Source: Pontivivens ytuae (GTDB taxonomy: Bacteria; Pseudomonadota; Alphaproteobacteria; Rhodobacterales; Rhodobacteraceae). From it: a stretch of 64,000 nt of DNA. The DNA lies in contig NZ_CP064942.1 of assembly GCF_015679265.1 (NCBI RefSeq), positions 2,770,001 through 2,834,000 on the forward strand. Reading direction: 5' to 3'. Positions 9,156 through 49,081 of the stretch are shown here, one piece after another. Both the position numbers and the translations under genes were made by a program. Every line of letters begins with the position of its first letter. Within the stretch, counting starts at the first letter, position 1. Under the pieces are notes generated by a model. The model did no database searches. It was given only the letters and a program-made list of their open reading frames with translations, and had not been told where the DNA came from.

Positions 9156-9190
9156 CCGCCTCCGGCGGGCGTATTGGACGAGAGTGATGG
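9156..9190 (+). repeat. Family B element
   Basis: CCGCCTCCGGCGG forms a tiny hairpin and is followed by GCGTATTGGACGAGAGTGATGG. It begins 12 bases after the BASS stop codon and ends at the stop of the convergent MFS gene. Close relatives lie at 53307 and 63880. Confidence 0.75.
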
Positions 9191-11132: not shown

Positions 11133-11162
11133 CCTCCTTGTCCAAATATCTCCGCCGGAAGC
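11133..11162 (-). repeat. Family B element, minus orientation
   Basis: Read on the minus strand this is CTTCCGGCGGAGATATTTGG followed by ACAAGGAGG. It is one of only two clear copies not placed directly after a plus-strand stop codon; it lies between divergent genes. Confidence 0.65.
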
Positions 11163-23940: not shown

Positions 23941-24255
23941 ATGACCGGATTTCAGAAGCACATCGCCGCCTCCCTCGCCTTTTTCGGGGCCGCGATCGCA
24001 GCGCTCGACGCACGGGCCGAGGGGGCGCCCTGTGGCCCCCGTGAGCAGGTGATCGAGCGACTGACGGGCCATTTCGGGGAGACGCGGCGGGCGATGGCCC
24101 TCGACCCGCGCGGGATCCTGGAGATCTTCGCCTCGGAGGAGACCGGCTCCTGGACCGTGACGATCACAACGCCGGAGGGCCTGACCTGCCTGATCGCGGC
24201 GGGCGAGCACTGGACAGATGCGCCGGGCGCGCCCGTGACAGGGCCGGGGGTCTAG
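23941..24255 (+). CDS. Small secreted protein of unknown function
   Basis: A 104-residue product with an N-terminal signal sequence (HIAASLAFFGAAIAALDARA) ending at an Ala-X-Ala type site near residue 26. The mature part carries two cysteines (GAPCGPREQVIERLTGHFGE and LTCLIAAGEHW), which probably form a disulfide. I recognise it only as a small conserved type seen near mcl2 in related genomes; function unknown. CAAAGGATTTGTC precedes the ATG. Family A repeat begins 15 bases after the stop. Confidence 0.7.
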   Translation: MTGFQKHIAASLAFFGAAIAALDARAEGAPCGPREQVIERLTGHFGETRRAMALDPRGILEIFASEETGSWTVTITTPEGLTCLIAAGEHWTDAPGAPVTGPGV

Positions 24256-24269
24256 TTTGAAACCCTATT

Positions 24270-24446
24270 GCCCGGCTGACAGGCCGGGCAGCGCCCGACC
24301 CTCCCGTCGTGCGAGGTGCACGCTTGCAGCGTGACGGGAGGGCGCTTTTGCGACGGATCGAGTATCGGCAGGCTGCTTGCTCATTTAAGCGGCTCAAGCA
24401 GGTCCGATGTTTCGCAGCGCCCACCCAGGCTCGGGCGCTGCCCTCA
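24270..24446. repeat. Family A composite inverted-terminator element, copy 1
   Basis: Starts with a GCCCGGCtgacaGGCCGGGC-type hairpin, then GCAGCGCCCGACCCTCCCG, an inner hairpin closing with CGGGAGGGCGCTTTT, a middle segment with nested stems ATCGG/CCGAT and CTGCTTG/CAAGCAG, and finally AGGCTCGGGCGCTGCCCT. The outer arms pair with one mismatch. It lies between a plus-strand gene and the convergent tauE-type gene and should terminate both. Confidence 0.8.
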
Positions 24447-24451
24447 TCTCA

Positions 24452-25204
24452 TCAAACCAGCGCGTCCCAGATCAGCTTTGCCCCTGTGATCGTCAGCAGC
24501 ACGTAGGTGATGCGGAAGAACAGGACCTCCGGCACCACCCTGTGCGCCCAGACGCCGATGAAGGTGCCGGCCAGCGCCACCGGGGCGAGGATCAGGTTGG
24601 CGACCGCCGTCTCTCGCGTGAAGAGCCCGAGGGCGAGGTAGGGAAAGAACTTCAGCACGTTCACCCACCAGAAGATGATGACCGTCGTGCCCTGATAGGC
24701 CTCCTTGGACAGCTGCTGGCCGAGGAGATGCACCGCCGCCGGTGGCCCGCCCGCGTGGCTGACGAAGGAGGTGAAGCCCGACACCGCGCCCCAGCCCATC
24801 GCCCGGTTGGCGGAGAAAGGCCGCGGCGGCACCGTGATCCAGCCTTGCCCCCGCCCGATCTGGAAGGCGACAAAGCCGAGGGCGATCGCCCCGATCGCCA
24901 ACCGCACCGCGTCGTCGCTGGTGTAGCGGAAGAGGATCACGCCGAGCACGACGCCCGGCACCATCCCGATCATCAGCGCTCGCGCGTCCGGCCACGACCA
25001 CTTGCGCCAGTAGGGTCGCAGGTTCGCGATATCCATCAGCATCAGGAGCGGCAGCATCACCCCGACGGCAAGCTGCGGCGGCACGACCAGCGCCAGCAGA
25101 GGCGCGGCGGCAAATGCCGCGCCCGAGCCGAAGCCGCCCTTCGAGATCCCGGCGAAGATCACCGCCGGCACCGCGAGTGCGAAGAAGGTCGCGTCGAGCT
25201 CCAC
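24452..25204 (-). CDS. TauE/SafE family sulfite or organosulfonate exporter
   Basis: The 250-residue protein is a TauE/SafE permease with about eight membrane helices; family members export sulfite, sulfoacetate or related anions. The motif AVIFAGISKGGFGSGAAFA near 16-34 and its second-half counterpart MGWGAVSGFTSFVSHAGGPP near 137-156 are characteristic. A GTG at 25204 is taken as start; it lies 5 bases after the stop of the response regulator gene, indicating one operon with the two-component genes. No sulfonate-degradation gene is visible, so the cargo is open. Confidence 0.85.
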   Translation of the reverse strand: MELDATFFALAVPAVIFAGISKGGFGSGAAFAAAPLLALVVPPQLAVGVMLPLLMLMDIANLRPYWRKWSWPDARALMIGMVPGVVLGVILFRYTSDDAVRLAIGAIALGFVAFQIGRGQGWITVPPRPFSANRAMGWGAVSGFTSFVSHAGGPPAAVHLLGQQLSKEAYQGTTVIIFWWVNVLKFFPYLALGLFTRETAVANLILAPVALAGTFIGVWAHRVVPEVLFFRITYVLLTITGAKLIWDALV

Positions 25205-25685: not shown

Positions 25686-28087
<2,402 letters not shown>

Positions 28088-28110
28088 TCGGGTCGTAACT
28101 CTGACGACGG

Positions 28111-28134
28111 ACGGGGCCTGCGGGCCCCGTTTTG
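28111..28134 (+). terminator. mdh terminator
   Basis: ACGGGGCC, a short loop and GGGCCCCGT form a GC-rich hairpin followed by TTTTGCTTT. Confidence 0.8.
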
Positions 28135-28165
28135 CTTTCGGCGTGGTTCGTTATTCATCTGTCAC

Positions 28166-28310
28166 GCCCGGCGGCCACGCCGGGCCGCGCCCGACCTCCC
28201 CCAGAGGGCGCGTTGGCGATGCCATTCATTGAAGTAGTGACGAGGGTGCTTGAGGGGGCGGGCCTCTCAAATCTGTTTCACAAGCGCCCTCCAGGTCGGG
28301 CGCGGCCCTT
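28166..28310. repeat. Family A composite inverted-terminator element, copy 2
   Basis: Begins GCCCGGCGGCCACGCCGGGC, then CGCGCCCGACCTCCCCCAGA and GGGCGCG, and ends with the outer arm AGGTCGGGCGCGGCCC. The outer arms (GGGCCGCGCCCGACCT and its complement) pair perfectly over 16 bases. Relative to copy 3 one A-T pair in the arm has become C-G on both sides, a compensatory change. It lies between mdh and the convergent quinone oxidoreductase gene. Confidence 0.8.
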
Positions 28311-28322
28311 GTCGCTTCGTGC

Positions 28323-29309
28323 TCAGGGCACCAACACGATCTTGCCGATGTGGCCGGAGCTCTCCATGCGGGCGTGCGCCTCGGCCGCCTTCTCCAGCGG
28401 GAAGGTCGAATCCATGACCGGGGCGATGCGGCCCGCGGCGAGTAGCGGCCAGACCTCGCGCTCCAGCACCTCGGCCACCGCCGCCTTGTCCTGCACCGAG
28501 CGGGGCCGCAGGGTGGAGCCGGTCAGCGTCAGCCGCTTCGTCATGACTTGGGCGAAGTTCACCTCCGCCTTAGGTCCGCCGAGGAAGGCGATCATCGACA
28601 GCCGCCCGTCCATGGCGAGCGCCCGCACGTTGCGCGGGACATAGTCGCCGCCGACCATGTCGAGGATCACGTCGACGCCGCGCCCGCCCGTCGCCCCCTT
28701 CACCACCTCCACGAAGTCCTCGTCGCGGTAGTTGATGGCCCGCTCCGCGCCGAGCCGCTCGCACGCCGCGCATTTCTCCGCTGAGCCTGCTGTGGCGAAG
28801 ACGCGCGCACCGCGGGCTTTCGCGAGCTGGATTGACGTGGTGCCGATGCCCGAGGAGCCGCCATGGACGAGGAACGTCTCGCCCGCCTTCAGCGCCGCCC
28901 GCTCGAAGACGTTGATCCACACGGTGAAGAAGGTCTCGCAGAGCGCCGCGGCCTCCTCCCACCCGATGCCTTCGGGCACGGGTAGGGCGTGGTCGGCGGG
29001 TGTGACGACATATTCCGCGTAGCCGCCGCCGGGCAGCAGGGCTGTGACCGCGTTGCCCTCTTTCCAGCGCGACGCGCCGGGGCCGACGGCGGCGACCTCG
29101 CCCGCGGCCTCCAGCCCCGGCAGGTCGGAGGCGCCCGGCGGCGGGTCGTAGGCGCCCGCGCGTTGCAGGGCGTCGGGGCGGTTCACGCCCGCGGCCTTCA
29201 CCCGGATCAGGATCTCGCCCGCCGCGGGCTCCGGCACCGGGCGCATGGCAGCCACCAGCACCTCCGGCCCGCCGGGTTTCGAGATCTCGATGCAGCGCAT
29301 GTCGGCCAT
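28323..29309 (-). CDS. NAD(P)H:quinone oxidoreductase, zinc-less MDR family
   Basis: A 328-residue quinone-oxidoreductase-like protein of the PIG3/QOR type, expected to reduce quinones or alkenals with NADPH. The GroES-like half has GEILIRVKAAGVNRPDALQR near 28-47 and GLEAAGEVAAVGPGA near 63-77; the Rossmann half has FLVHGGSSGIGTTSIQLAKA near 144-163 and GVDVILDMVGGDYV near 213-226. Structural zinc cysteines are absent, as in this subfamily. Start MADMRC at 29309 sits 10 bases after the stop of the b561 gene, so they are likely co-transcribed. Confidence 0.87.
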   Translation of the reverse strand: MADMRCIEISKPGGPEVLVAAMRPVPEPAAGEILIRVKAAGVNRPDALQRAGAYDPPPGASDLPGLEAAGEVAAVGPGASRWKEGNAVTALLPGGGYAEYVVTPADHALPVPEGIGWEEAAALCETFFTVWINVFERAALKAGETFLVHGGSSGIGTTSIQLAKARGARVFATAGSAEKCAACERLGAERAINYRDEDFVEVVKGATGGRGVDVILDMVGGDYVPRNVRALAMDGRLSMIAFLGGPKAEVNFAQVMTKRLTLTGSTLRPRSVQDKAAVAEVLEREVWPLLAAGRIAPVMDSTFPLEKAAEAHARMESSGHIGKIVLVP

Positions 29310-31703: not shown

Positions 31704-32965
31704 GCGCACCCACATCGGACGCGGTGTTGCAGCGGCTGATGTCGCTGCACCCCAAGGTGATCGACCTGACGCTGGACCGGATGGAGCGCCTGCTTGCCGC
31801 GCTCGGCCATCCCGAGCGCGACCTGCCCCCCGTGGTGCATGTGGCAGGCACCAACGGCAAGGGCTCCACCATCGCGATGATGCGCGCGGGGCTGGAGTCT
31901 GCGGGCCAGCGCGTCTCCGTCTACACCTCCCCCCATCTGGCGCGGTTTCACGAGCGCATTCGCCTGCCGGACGGCCTGATCGGCGAGGCGGATCTGATGG
32001 CACTGCTTGAGGAGTGCGAGGCGGTGAACGGCGGCGCGCCGATCACCTATTTCGAGATCACGACCTGCGCGGCGTTTCTGGCCTTCGCCCGGACGCCCGC
32101 CGACTACCTGCTGCTGGAGGTGGGGCTCGGCGGCCGGCTCGACGCGACCAACGTGGTGGACCGCCCGGCGCTCAGCATCATCACGCCGGTCTCCCTCGAC
32201 CACCAGCAGTTTCTTGGCGAGCGGGTGGAGCAGATCGCGGGTGAGAAGGCCGGGATCCTGAAGCGCGGCGTGCCTGCCGTGATCGCCCGCCAGTCCGACG
32301 CCGCCCGCGCGGTGATCGAGGCACGGGCGGAGGCGGTCGGTGCGCCGCTCACCATCGGCGGGCAGGACTGGGATGTCTACGAGGATCAGGGTCGGCTCGC
32401 GTTCTTCGACCAGGACGGCCTGCTGGACCTGCCGATGCCGAACCTGATCGGCGCGCATCAGGTGCAGAACGCTGGGACGGCGCTGGCCGGGCTGCGGATG
32501 CTGGGCTTCGATGAGGCCGCTTGCGAGGCGGCGGTGACGCGCGCCGAGTGGCCCGCCCGGATGCAGCGCCTGCGCCACGGTCCGCTGGTTGAGGCCGCGG
32601 GCGACCGCGACCTCTGGCTCGACGGGGGGCACAACGTGGCGGCGGGCGAGGCATTGGCCGAGGCGCTGGGCCGCCTGCCGGCCCGTCCGCTCCACGTGAT
32701 CTGCGGGATGATGAACACGAAGGACGCGAAGGGCTTCCTGACCCCGCTCGCGCGGATCGCCGGTAGCCTGCAGGCGGTCGCAGTACCCGGGGAGGCGAAC
32801 GCCGCCGATCCCGAAGCACTGGCCGCGGCGGCGTCGGAGCAGGGCATGGAAGCGGCGGTTGCGCCGGGCGTTGCCAGCGCCGTGGATGCCGCGCCGCCGG
32901 ATGCCCGCTTGCTGATCTGTGGTTCGCTTTATCTGGCTGGATACGTCCTGCGCGAGAACGGCTAA
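31700..32965 (+). CDS. folC: Bifunctional folylpolyglutamate/dihydrofolate synthase
   Basis: FolC adds glutamate to dihydropteroate and extends folate polyglutamate tails. The 421-residue protein has the P-loop VVHVAGTNGKGSTIAMM at 45-61, the omega-loop region YTSPHLARFHERIRL near 75-89, DYLLLEVGLGGRLDATNV near 134-151 and WLDGGHNVAAGEALAEAL near 306-323. It overlaps the accD stop by 4 bases (ATGA) and is translationally coupled. A family A repeat begins 15 bases after its stop and is the probable terminator. Confidence 0.95.
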   Translation: MSAPTSDAVLQRLMSLHPKVIDLTLDRMERLLAALGHPERDLPPVVHVAGTNGKGSTIAMMRAGLESAGQRVSVYTSPHLARFHERIRLPDGLIGEADLMALLEECEAVNGGAPITYFEITTCAAFLAFARTPADYLLLEVGLGGRLDATNVVDRPALSIITPVSLDHQQFLGERVEQIAGEKAGILKRGVPAVIARQSDAARAVIEARAEAVGAPLTIGGQDWDVYEDQGRLAFFDQDGLLDLPMPNLIGAHQVQNAGTALAGLRMLGFDEAACEAAVTRAEWPARMQRLRHGPLVEAAGDRDLWLDGGHNVAAGEALAEALGRLPARPLHVICGMMNTKDAKGFLTPLARIAGSLQAVAVPGEANAADPEALAAAASEQGMEAAVAPGVASAVDAAPPDARLLICGSLYLAGYVLRENG

Positions 32966-32980
32966 AGCAGAAGAGACACC

Positions 32981-33130
32981 GCCCGGCGGCACCGCCGGGC
33001 AGCGCCCGACCCTCCCCACGGGAGGGCGCTTTTACAGCTGATCACGAAGCGGTGCCCACTGAGTATGTTGTGATGGCGCAAGCCGTAAGTATGTCGTGCA
33101 GCGCCCACCCAGGGTCGGGCGCTGCCCTCA
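32981..33130. repeat. Family A composite inverted-terminator element, copy 3
   Basis: The clearest copy. GCCCGGCGGcaCCGCCGGGC hairpin, then AGCGCCCGACCCTCCC-cac-GGGAGGGCGCTTTT, which by itself is a terminator for folC, then about 60 variable bases, then a GCAGCGCCC...GGGCGCTGC hairpin facing the minus-strand SDR gene. The outer arms GGGCAGCGCCCGACCCT and AGGGTCGGGCGCTGCCC are perfect 17-base complements, so local and long-range pairings compete. Confidence 0.85.
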
Positions 33131-33139
33131 GCGCCAAGC

Positions 33140-33943
33140 TCAGCCCGAAGGCGCGTCTAACGGGTCGAGGTTGGTCCGACCGCCGTCCACGCCGAGGATC
33201 TGACCCGTGATGAAGCTCGCCTTGTCCGACGCGAGGAAGAGGGCCGCCTCCGCCGCTTCCTCCGCATCGCCGATCCGGCCGAGCGGCGTGACGGCGGTGA
33301 GCTCGTCGCGCAGCTCCTCCCGCTCCTTCAGCGCTTCCTTCAGGTGGCCGGTCATGACGCCGCCCAAGGCAATCGCGTTCACCCGCACGCCCTTCGGCGC
33401 CAGCGCCACCGCAAGGCTGCGCGTCATCTGGTCGAGTGCCGCACAGCTCACCGAATAGGCGAGCAGCTCCGGCAGCGTCCGCTGCGAGGCGATGGAGGTC
33501 ACGTTCACGATCGCACCGACAGCCCGGCCGCCTTCCTCCGCCTCACCTTGCGTGATCATCTTGCGCGCAACCATCTGGCTGAGCCGCAGCGCGTTCTTCA
33601 CGTTCTGCTGCATGAGCTGGTCGAAGACCTCGCCCGACGGGTCCAGCGGGTCGGAGGAGATCACCTGCCGCGCCGCGTTCACCAGGATGTCCACCCGGTC
33701 GAAGCTGTCGATGGTCGTCGCCATCAGGTTCGCGATCGACAGCTTCTCGCGCAGGTCGCAGGAGAAGCTCTGCAGCCGGTCGCTGTCCTTCTTGATGTTG
33801 CGGACCTCTTCCTCGAGCTTTTCGTCGTCGATGTCGGCCATCATGACCTTGGCGCCTTCCGCGCAGAATTTCCGCGCGATGGCGAGGCCCACGCCGCTCG
33901 CCGCCCCCGTCACGATGACGGATTTGCCCGCTACCGATCCCAT
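33140..33943 (-). CDS. SDR family protein lacking the catalytic lysine
   Basis: A 267-residue short-chain dehydrogenase/reductase. The cofactor motif is TGAASGVG at 12-19, with an acidic MADIDD near 35-40 suggesting NAD. Asn114 (QQNVKNAL), Ser150 (VTSIASQ) and Tyr163 keep the usual spacing, but the YxxxK motif reads Y163-S-V-S-C167, so the proton-relay lysine is cysteine, and the NNAG motif reads VNAAR. The fold is intact, which argues for a functional but atypical or non-catalytic protein. Start at 33943 follows GGGTGAGAG. Divergent from an acyl-CoA ligase gene across 115 bases. Confidence 0.85.
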   Translation of the reverse strand: MGSVAGKSVIVTGAASGVGLAIARKFCAEGAKVMMADIDDEKLEEEVRNIKKDSDRLQSFSCDLREKLSIANLMATTIDSFDRVDILVNAARQVISSDPLDPSGEVFDQLMQQNVKNALRLSQMVARKMITQGEAEEGGRAVGAIVNVTSIASQRTLPELLAYSVSCAALDQMTRSLAVALAPKGVRVNAIALGGVMTGHLKEALKEREELRDELTAVTPLGRIGDAEEAAEAALFLASDKASFITGQILGVDGGRTNLDPLDAPSG

Positions 33944-48986: not shown

Positions 48987-49081
48987 GGTCCGTCTCCTTC
49001 AATCCCATGTGCCAAACGGCGAACGCACCGGCGGGCGCAACGCGCTGACCGGTGGCGATCCCCGGCGCACGGGCCGTGGGA

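Follow-up and report, generated by a model that had tools for sequence, protein, structure and literature searches.

The 64,000-nucleotide stretch of the Pontivivens ytuae genome analyzed here (contig NZ_CP064942.1, positions 2,770,001 to 2,834,000; the window) carries three related palindromic elements in the gaps between genes, and the question that they raise is whether these are bidirectional transcription terminators, as an earlier note on this DNA had proposed, or members of a dispersed repeat family with another role. Each of the three copies was confirmed to lie between two convergent predicted genes. Their parts and neighbors are as follows (window coordinates).

23941..24255, plus strand: predicted gene left of copy 1, no Pfam hit
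24270..24446, plus strand: copy 1, type A, whose left unit contains an additional hairpin (covariance model, 34.5 bits)
24270..24289, plus strand: hairpin 1 of copy 1, whose 3' GGGC is shared with the left arm (its first four bases)
24286..24300, plus strand: left arm of copy 1, exact
24429..24443, minus strand: right arm of copy 1, one mismatch
24452..25204, minus strand: predicted gene right of copy 1, TauE/SafE family
27125..28087, plus strand: predicted gene left of copy 2, lactate/malate dehydrogenase
28111..28138, plus strand: hairpin with a T tract, resembling a canonical terminator, located after the malate dehydrogenase stop codon and before copy 2
28166..28310, plus strand: copy 2, type B (covariance model, 149.8 bits)
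28166..28185, plus strand: hairpin 1 of copy 2
28182..28196, plus strand: left arm of copy 2, exact
28294..28308, minus strand: right arm of copy 2, exact
28323..29309, minus strand: predicted gene right of copy 2, zinc-binding dehydrogenase
31739..32965, plus strand: predicted gene left of copy 3, Mur ligase family (presumably folC-like)
32981..33130, plus strand: copy 3, type A (covariance model, 57.6 bits)
32981..33000, plus strand: hairpin 1 of copy 3
32997..33011, plus strand: left arm of copy 3, exact
33020..33033, plus strand: GGGAGGGCGC followed by TTTT in copy 3, left unit, inner half, which the earlier note had regarded as terminator-like
33113..33127, minus strand: right arm of copy 3, exact
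33140..33943, minus strand: predicted gene right of copy 3, short-chain dehydrogenase

The view of each copy as a composite of two inverted units whose far arms can pair is supported. The arms are exact reverse complements of each other in copies 2 and 3, but copy 1 has one mismatch (GAGC versus GACC), and the A-T to C-G exchange that distinguishes copy 3 from copy 2 is indeed present in both arms. A plus-side GGGCGCTTTT had been ascribed to the element in general; it is found in copies 1 and 3, but copy 2 reads GGGCGCGTTGG at this place and is without the TTTT. Two subfamilies with common ends and different middles are represented, type A by copies 1 and 3 and type B by copy 2. Thirteen arm sites with up to two mismatches are present in the window, against 6.3 expected from shuffles (13 was reached in one of 100); six of them are the arms of the three copies, while the other seven stand singly.

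The three copies belong to a family that is dispersed through the genome. The arm GGGCNGCGCCCGACC occurs 179 times when one mismatch is allowed, against 33 occurrences of the reversed pattern. A covariance model made from 12 type-B copies and used with a cut-off of E up to 0.01 yielded 82 hits in the 4.2-Mb genome, from which 78 copies remained after four opposite-strand duplicates had been dropped: 46 of type B (score above 70), 24 of type A, and eight short ones (type C), a division that rests on score and length only and in which at least one 'A' copy (406624) resembles a decayed B. An exact two-part pattern was found in 71 of 295 sampled genomes of the family Rhodobacteraceae (reversed control: none) and was without a match in the other 224; it is present in 36 copies here, in 62 copies in genome G281, and in one to seven copies in each of the remaining carriers. 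In public genomes, at least 120 stretches matched, and the 80 loci listed (90 matches) derive, by their titles, nearly all from Thioclava, Shimia, Leisingera, Phaeobacter, Ruegeria, Pararhodobacter, Oceanicella, and others, genera that we take to belong to the Rhodobacterales. Two records titled Opitutaceae and Nocardioides marinus (loci L258 and L298) also carry the element; because nearly all other carriers are Rhodobacterales, these assemblies are perhaps mislabeled or contaminated. Copies can be clustered, as in G281 (C92:127136-127928), where four of them follow each other in tandem about 200 bases apart, and in Pararhodobacter oceanensis, where paired copies are spaced by about 180-380 bases. 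A single query of PLSDB with one 81-base short form gave no match at E 0.01, and Rfam 15 contained no family matching the element above gathering in the window and none at E up to 1 between 24200 and 33200. None of the papers listed in literature searches, which covered few subscription journals, describes this repeat.

The 90 named copies, whose left arms were chosen by an exact search pattern, fall into two sizes, with either 129-137 or 64-66 bases between the outer ends of the two arms; in eight of them, some at contig ends, a right arm was not recognized. In 80 of the 90 copies (single-base shuffles: mean 28, maximum 39), a hairpin stands before the element, its 3' strand ending in the left arm's GGGC; 43 different 5' strands occur in this hairpin.

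Pairing between the arms is conserved. In 48 long forms from many genera, seven of them from the P. ytuae genome, 91.6% of the cells of the far and inner stems are paired, a value that none of the shuffles reached (90.1%), and 18 cells are changed on both sides, against a mean of 3.9 in shuffles, which ignore relatedness, and none in slid controls. The compensatory arm changes first noticed in two window copies are supported across this larger set, in which one covarying pair reads C-G in 36 forms and U-A in 12 and is never broken. On the two stricter measures, however, pairs with a both-side change numbered three (shuffles 1.7; reached by 36 of 500) and further pair types eight (shuffles 6.8; reached by 65 of 500); these two of the five measures of covariation were thus unremarkable, and RNAalifold, in the structures that it predicted for A3 and A2, saw no both-side change. 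At position 5, the compensatory base of the earlier note, the arms match in 47 of 61 copies of the P. ytuae genome and in 70 of 88 named copies. Among 31 type-B copies, 24 arm positions were altered on one side and none on both, so that individual copies do not have their pairing restored; the covariation of the arms is one between subfamilies and between genera. A strand-specific RNA structure was considered on account of a wobble asymmetry (46 A-C versus nine G-T cells in 87 named copies; 16 versus 10 in 63 copies of the P. ytuae genome), but we set this candidate aside because the search pattern dictates the left arm of the named set and because one variant of the right arm is common there.

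Two mutually exclusive structures had been put forward as a transcription-dependent switch. Two competing folds are indeed predicted for the plus strand, one with the far stem (-83 to -99 kcal/mol) and one with local hairpins only (-74 to -88 kcal/mol), but the switch itself is unsupported; alternative folds are no proof of it because any pair of inverted palindromic units yields two. Two such alternative folds are already known from REPINs (PMC3116915).

The arms are far better conserved than the sequence between them. In type B, mean pairwise identity is 95% in the arms (31 copies without an insert) and about 66-67% in the spacer, and no two of the 46 spacers are more than 88% identical; in type A (22 copies, two having been dropped), the ends are 87% identical and the spacers 43% on average and 75% at most. 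Since neither type contains a nearly identical pair of spacers, the family is not visibly active in this genome. Copies that occupy the same place in two species allow a direct test of host use, namely the comparison of arm and spacer. Seven such copies were recognized by script between G281 (32 loci) and G313 (23 loci), two genomes of another genus, while an eighth (L397/L380) was aligned outside this count. In the seven pairs, 71 of 611 arm and hairpin positions differ, against 118 of 482 spacer positions (p = 3e-8); when two pairs with a degenerate G313 copy are dropped post hoc, the five others give 25 of 424 against 84 of 357 (p = 9e-13). Arms are degenerate or truncated in G313 in two of the seven, and the flanks of six of the seven are 79-93% identical. 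This comparison suggests that the arms are under constraint in place; gene conversion between copies that is confined to the arms could mimic such selection.

Presence of the element at orthologous sites is patchy. The gene pair that surrounds copy 3 nearly touches in G001 and G003, both of the same genus, and there is no element; likewise, the gene pair of copy 1 nearly touches in G003 and G002, again with no element, while the next gene is a different one in G001. Copy 2 (window 28089-28323) is located at a break in gene order: its flanking genes reside on different contigs in G001 and G003 and are separated by about 187 kb in G002. With stricter filters, the covariance model detected no, two, and no copies in G001, G002, and G003, respectively, and DNA matches revealed some further arm-like fragments in G002. 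Furthermore, one copy of G281 has no counterpart at the syntenic position in G313. This pattern is explained more simply by insertion; absence in the relatives could in principle reflect loss.

Placement among genes is biased as well. Gene calls from a custom gene caller, not a published tool, put 76 of the 78 copies of the genome into intergenic DNA, and by type of gap 32 are convergent, 42 tandem, and four divergent. When compared with unoccupied gaps drawn from the same sequence stretches, occupied gaps are enriched for convergent ones (31 of 75 versus 41 of 383; odds ratio 5.9, p = 2e-9), the concentration at convergent gene ends that the earlier note had asked about, and depleted of divergent ones (4 of 75 versus 72 of 383; odds ratio 0.24, p = 0.003). 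The named loci, 80 of which could be classified after 10 at contig ends had been dropped, are distributed over 30 convergent, 43 tandem, and seven divergent gaps; the convergent excess recurs there (30 of 80 versus 53 of 369, p = 9e-6), and the divergent deficit taken alone is not significant (7 of 80 versus 59 of 369; Fisher p = 0.12). Between tandem genes, the element has no preferred orientation, with 21 copies pointing with and 21 against transcription (seven and six for type A). Within tandem gaps, a position nearer to the upstream stop codon is not clearly favored in the P. ytuae genome (23 of 42, p = 0.26) and is slightly favored in the named loci (29 of 43, p = 0.016). Avoidance of promoters alone may account for the bias in placement, a suggestion that is based on reasoning only. 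A conserved location was considered and rejected: few neighboring genes recur at different loci (20 rank-1, 17 mixed, and seven rank-2 pairs among 609 proteins), but with rank-1 pairs somewhat above rank-2 pairs some shared sites are possible. A site common to copy 3 and Pararhodobacter was likewise rejected: the copies there adjoin a folC-like gene but have another partner gene. Short forms in L258 and in the P. ytuae genome (G000:C1:1172075-1172162) adjoin the same gene at its 3' end, presumably that of the succinyl-CoA ligase alpha subunit, with 64% identity between the proteins.

The element is embedded among other repeats, and the genome contains several interlocking palindromic repeat families. 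In 15 of the 46 type-B copies the left unit is altered, with a palindromic module 'D' (CCCGGGGCTCCGCCCG...) beside the altered unit in the flanks. In at least seven type-B copies, module 'D' is situated within the left arm at one position, and the arm is split rather than lost; examples of the module are provided by the type-B copies beside 1106112, 2090609, 3534045, 3728321, 4150400, and 794628 (L016) of G000. One copy suggests a 3-base duplication (ACC) at the junction, and similar modules adjoin copies of the element in other genera (L269, L284, L286). A second palindrome, AAGGCCCCGGATCAAGTCCGGGGCGGT, is found at a fixed distance of about 48 bases to the left of hairpin 1 in about twenty G000 copies; elsewhere a different hairpin (CCGTCCCGGCC...GCCGGGACCG) comes after AAGGCCCCGGATCAAGTCCGGGGCGGT. 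A further short repeat that is dispersed, GCCTCCGGCGGG(C/G)(G/A)TATT..., is present in the window at 9158, 35684, 43687, 53311, and 59984 on the plus strand and at 11145 on the minus strand, always in gaps between predicted genes and in four of the six cases no more than 30 bases behind the stop codon of a plus-strand gene; a repeat resembling GCCTCCGGCGGG follows the malate dehydrogenase gene in G001. The window also contains an Rfam match to the ffh sRNA (49018-49069, minus strand; 57 bits).

We consider it probable, at odds of about two in three, that the element is a dispersed, non-coding palindromic repeat of the Rhodobacterales of the REPIN/BIME kind, which is inserted into gaps between genes, whose arms are kept by selection, and which is not primarily an intrinsic terminator. 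The element has two inverted arms of conserved sequence and, before them, a hairpin whose sequence varies; the long form measures about 150 bp and has its arms at a nearly fixed distance around a much less conserved spacer, and the short form measures about 65 bp, both arms included. Its dispersal, patchy presence, and placement and the conservation and pairing of its arms are observed. Copies would have been spread by a transposase-like activity; they would enter the gaps between genes and be retained chiefly where they leave promoters intact, foremost between convergent genes. The arms would be selected in place for the very stable hairpin that they can form, as RNA of either strand or as DNA, and this hairpin might act either as a 3'-end hairpin that stabilizes transcripts or helps to end them, or as a paired binding site for a protein.

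A role in supercoiling, with gyrase as a partner, has been proposed for enterobacterial BIMEs. By analogy, the arms of the present element might primarily serve at the DNA level, binding gyrase or a nucleoid protein and relieving or bounding supercoiling between convergent genes. Arm sequences that are conserved across genera beyond what pairing requires (the left arms having been pattern-selected), the near-fixed spacing of the arms around a loosely conserved spacer, and the orientation-neutral placement together with the convergent enrichment would all suit such a site, but the short form exists without the long spacer, and most sampled genomes of the family do without an exact match. We regard this explanation as unlikely.

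A selected bidirectional intrinsic terminator between convergent genes, with its exclusive folds acting as a transcription-dependent switch, appears quite unlikely to us. The enrichment in convergent gaps, the presence of GGGCGCTTTT in copies 1 and 3, the predicted stable alternative folds, and the constraint on the arms speak for it, and like a Rho-independent terminator the element offers a GC-rich hairpin. At least four T within the six bases after the inner hairpin are present in 12 of 24 type-A copies (one was not located), but such a plus-side U-tract is found in one of 46 type-B copies (absent in 43, with two more not located) and in none of the eight of type C, and a minus-side U-tract was seen in just two of 74 located cases. 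A scan of the whole element for a hairpin plus T scored seven of 78 copies on the plus strand and four of 78 on the minus strand. In the window between 24000 and 34000, a consensus scan detected six terminator-like sites, against 2.9 in shuffles; two of them lie over copy 2 and two others over hairpin 1 of copy 3. As for the adjoining genes, 43 gene ends nearer than 40 bases to a copy are without a canonical terminator of their own, there being little room for one, but among the 63 facing ends at least 40 bases away, a simple hairpin-plus-T scan placed a canonical terminator before the element in 13, a rate close to that of control ends that have no element (29 of 154). Copy 2 itself is positioned beyond the malate dehydrogenase gene's own terminator, and by eye the orthologs in the three same-genus genomes G001, G002, and G003 are also followed by a comparable hairpin with a T tract. 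With U-tracts rare outside type A, 42 of the 78 copies between tandem genes, no bias in orientation there, and adjoining convergent genes that do without the element in relatives at the sites of copies 1 and 3, the terminator function that had been attributed to the element is unsupported, and the element is probably not primarily an intrinsic terminator. Since U-tracts and scan hits are present in some copies, termination by these may nevertheless occur. Hairpins between convergent genes in these genomes should accordingly not be annotated as terminators by position alone.

REP and REPIN repeats are usually ascribed to RAYT transposases, and they have been argued to be either selfish or useful. 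Mobilization of the element by such an enzyme was considered and rejected: the Y1 transposase domain of the RAYT family (PF01797) was found neither in the P. ytuae genome (G000) nor in the carriers G006, G007, and G012, it is present in two other carriers (G010 and G018), and its presence (seven of 41 genomes) does not follow the copy number of the element. No target-site duplication (k 2-9) was detected at any fixed boundary of 58 copies of the P. ytuae genome and 14 of G281, and the boundaries of the element are therefore undefined. In 18 of 58 copies, one of the tetramers CGTC, TGTC, CCTC, or GTAG occurs no more than eight bases to the left of hairpin 1, and in one of 58 beyond the right end. 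That the element is instead a classical MITE, which would be non-autonomous, carry terminal inverted repeats, and descend from a DDE insertion sequence, is very unlikely: it resembles MITEs in its inverted ends, short length, two near-constant sizes, dispersal, and empty sites, but no target duplication was seen, no parent insertion sequence was found, and no longer element with the same ends was noticed by eye among about 100 of the 179 arms listed.

The repeat of the REPIN/BIME kind that we favor matters as an instance of REPIN anatomy in genomes without PF01797. As a tentative extension of this reading, which we would call doubtful, the element could represent a Rhodobacterales-wide REPIN-like class that is moved by a non-RAYT enzyme and has been selected, once inserted, as a paired site, nearly fixed in its spacing and with an almost unconstrained spacer, that insulates neighboring genes, especially convergent ones, at the level of RNA or DNA.

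Among known systems, the element has the anatomy of a REPIN, with two conserved inverted units around a spacer in extragenic DNA, and it also shares with REPINs the long hairpin or clover folds and the occurrence in clusters (PMC3116915). It differs from what is described there by the lack of PF01797 in its own genome and in three other carriers, by the variable-sequence hairpin before its left arm, and by its two sizes. The report on alphaproteobacterial REPs and BIMEs with a CGTC tag (PMC3733652) describes repeats that are likewise intergenic, reside mainly in convergent or unidirectional gaps, and form mosaics with other palindromes. Their published stems comprise 8-9 bp and nearly always start with AT, and hairpin 1 of the present element is unlike them. 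The preference for convergent and unidirectional over divergent gaps that characterizes REPs and BIMEs is found for the element as well. Its closest kind is the REPIN/BIME one, within which it stands apart from the RAYT-linked family.
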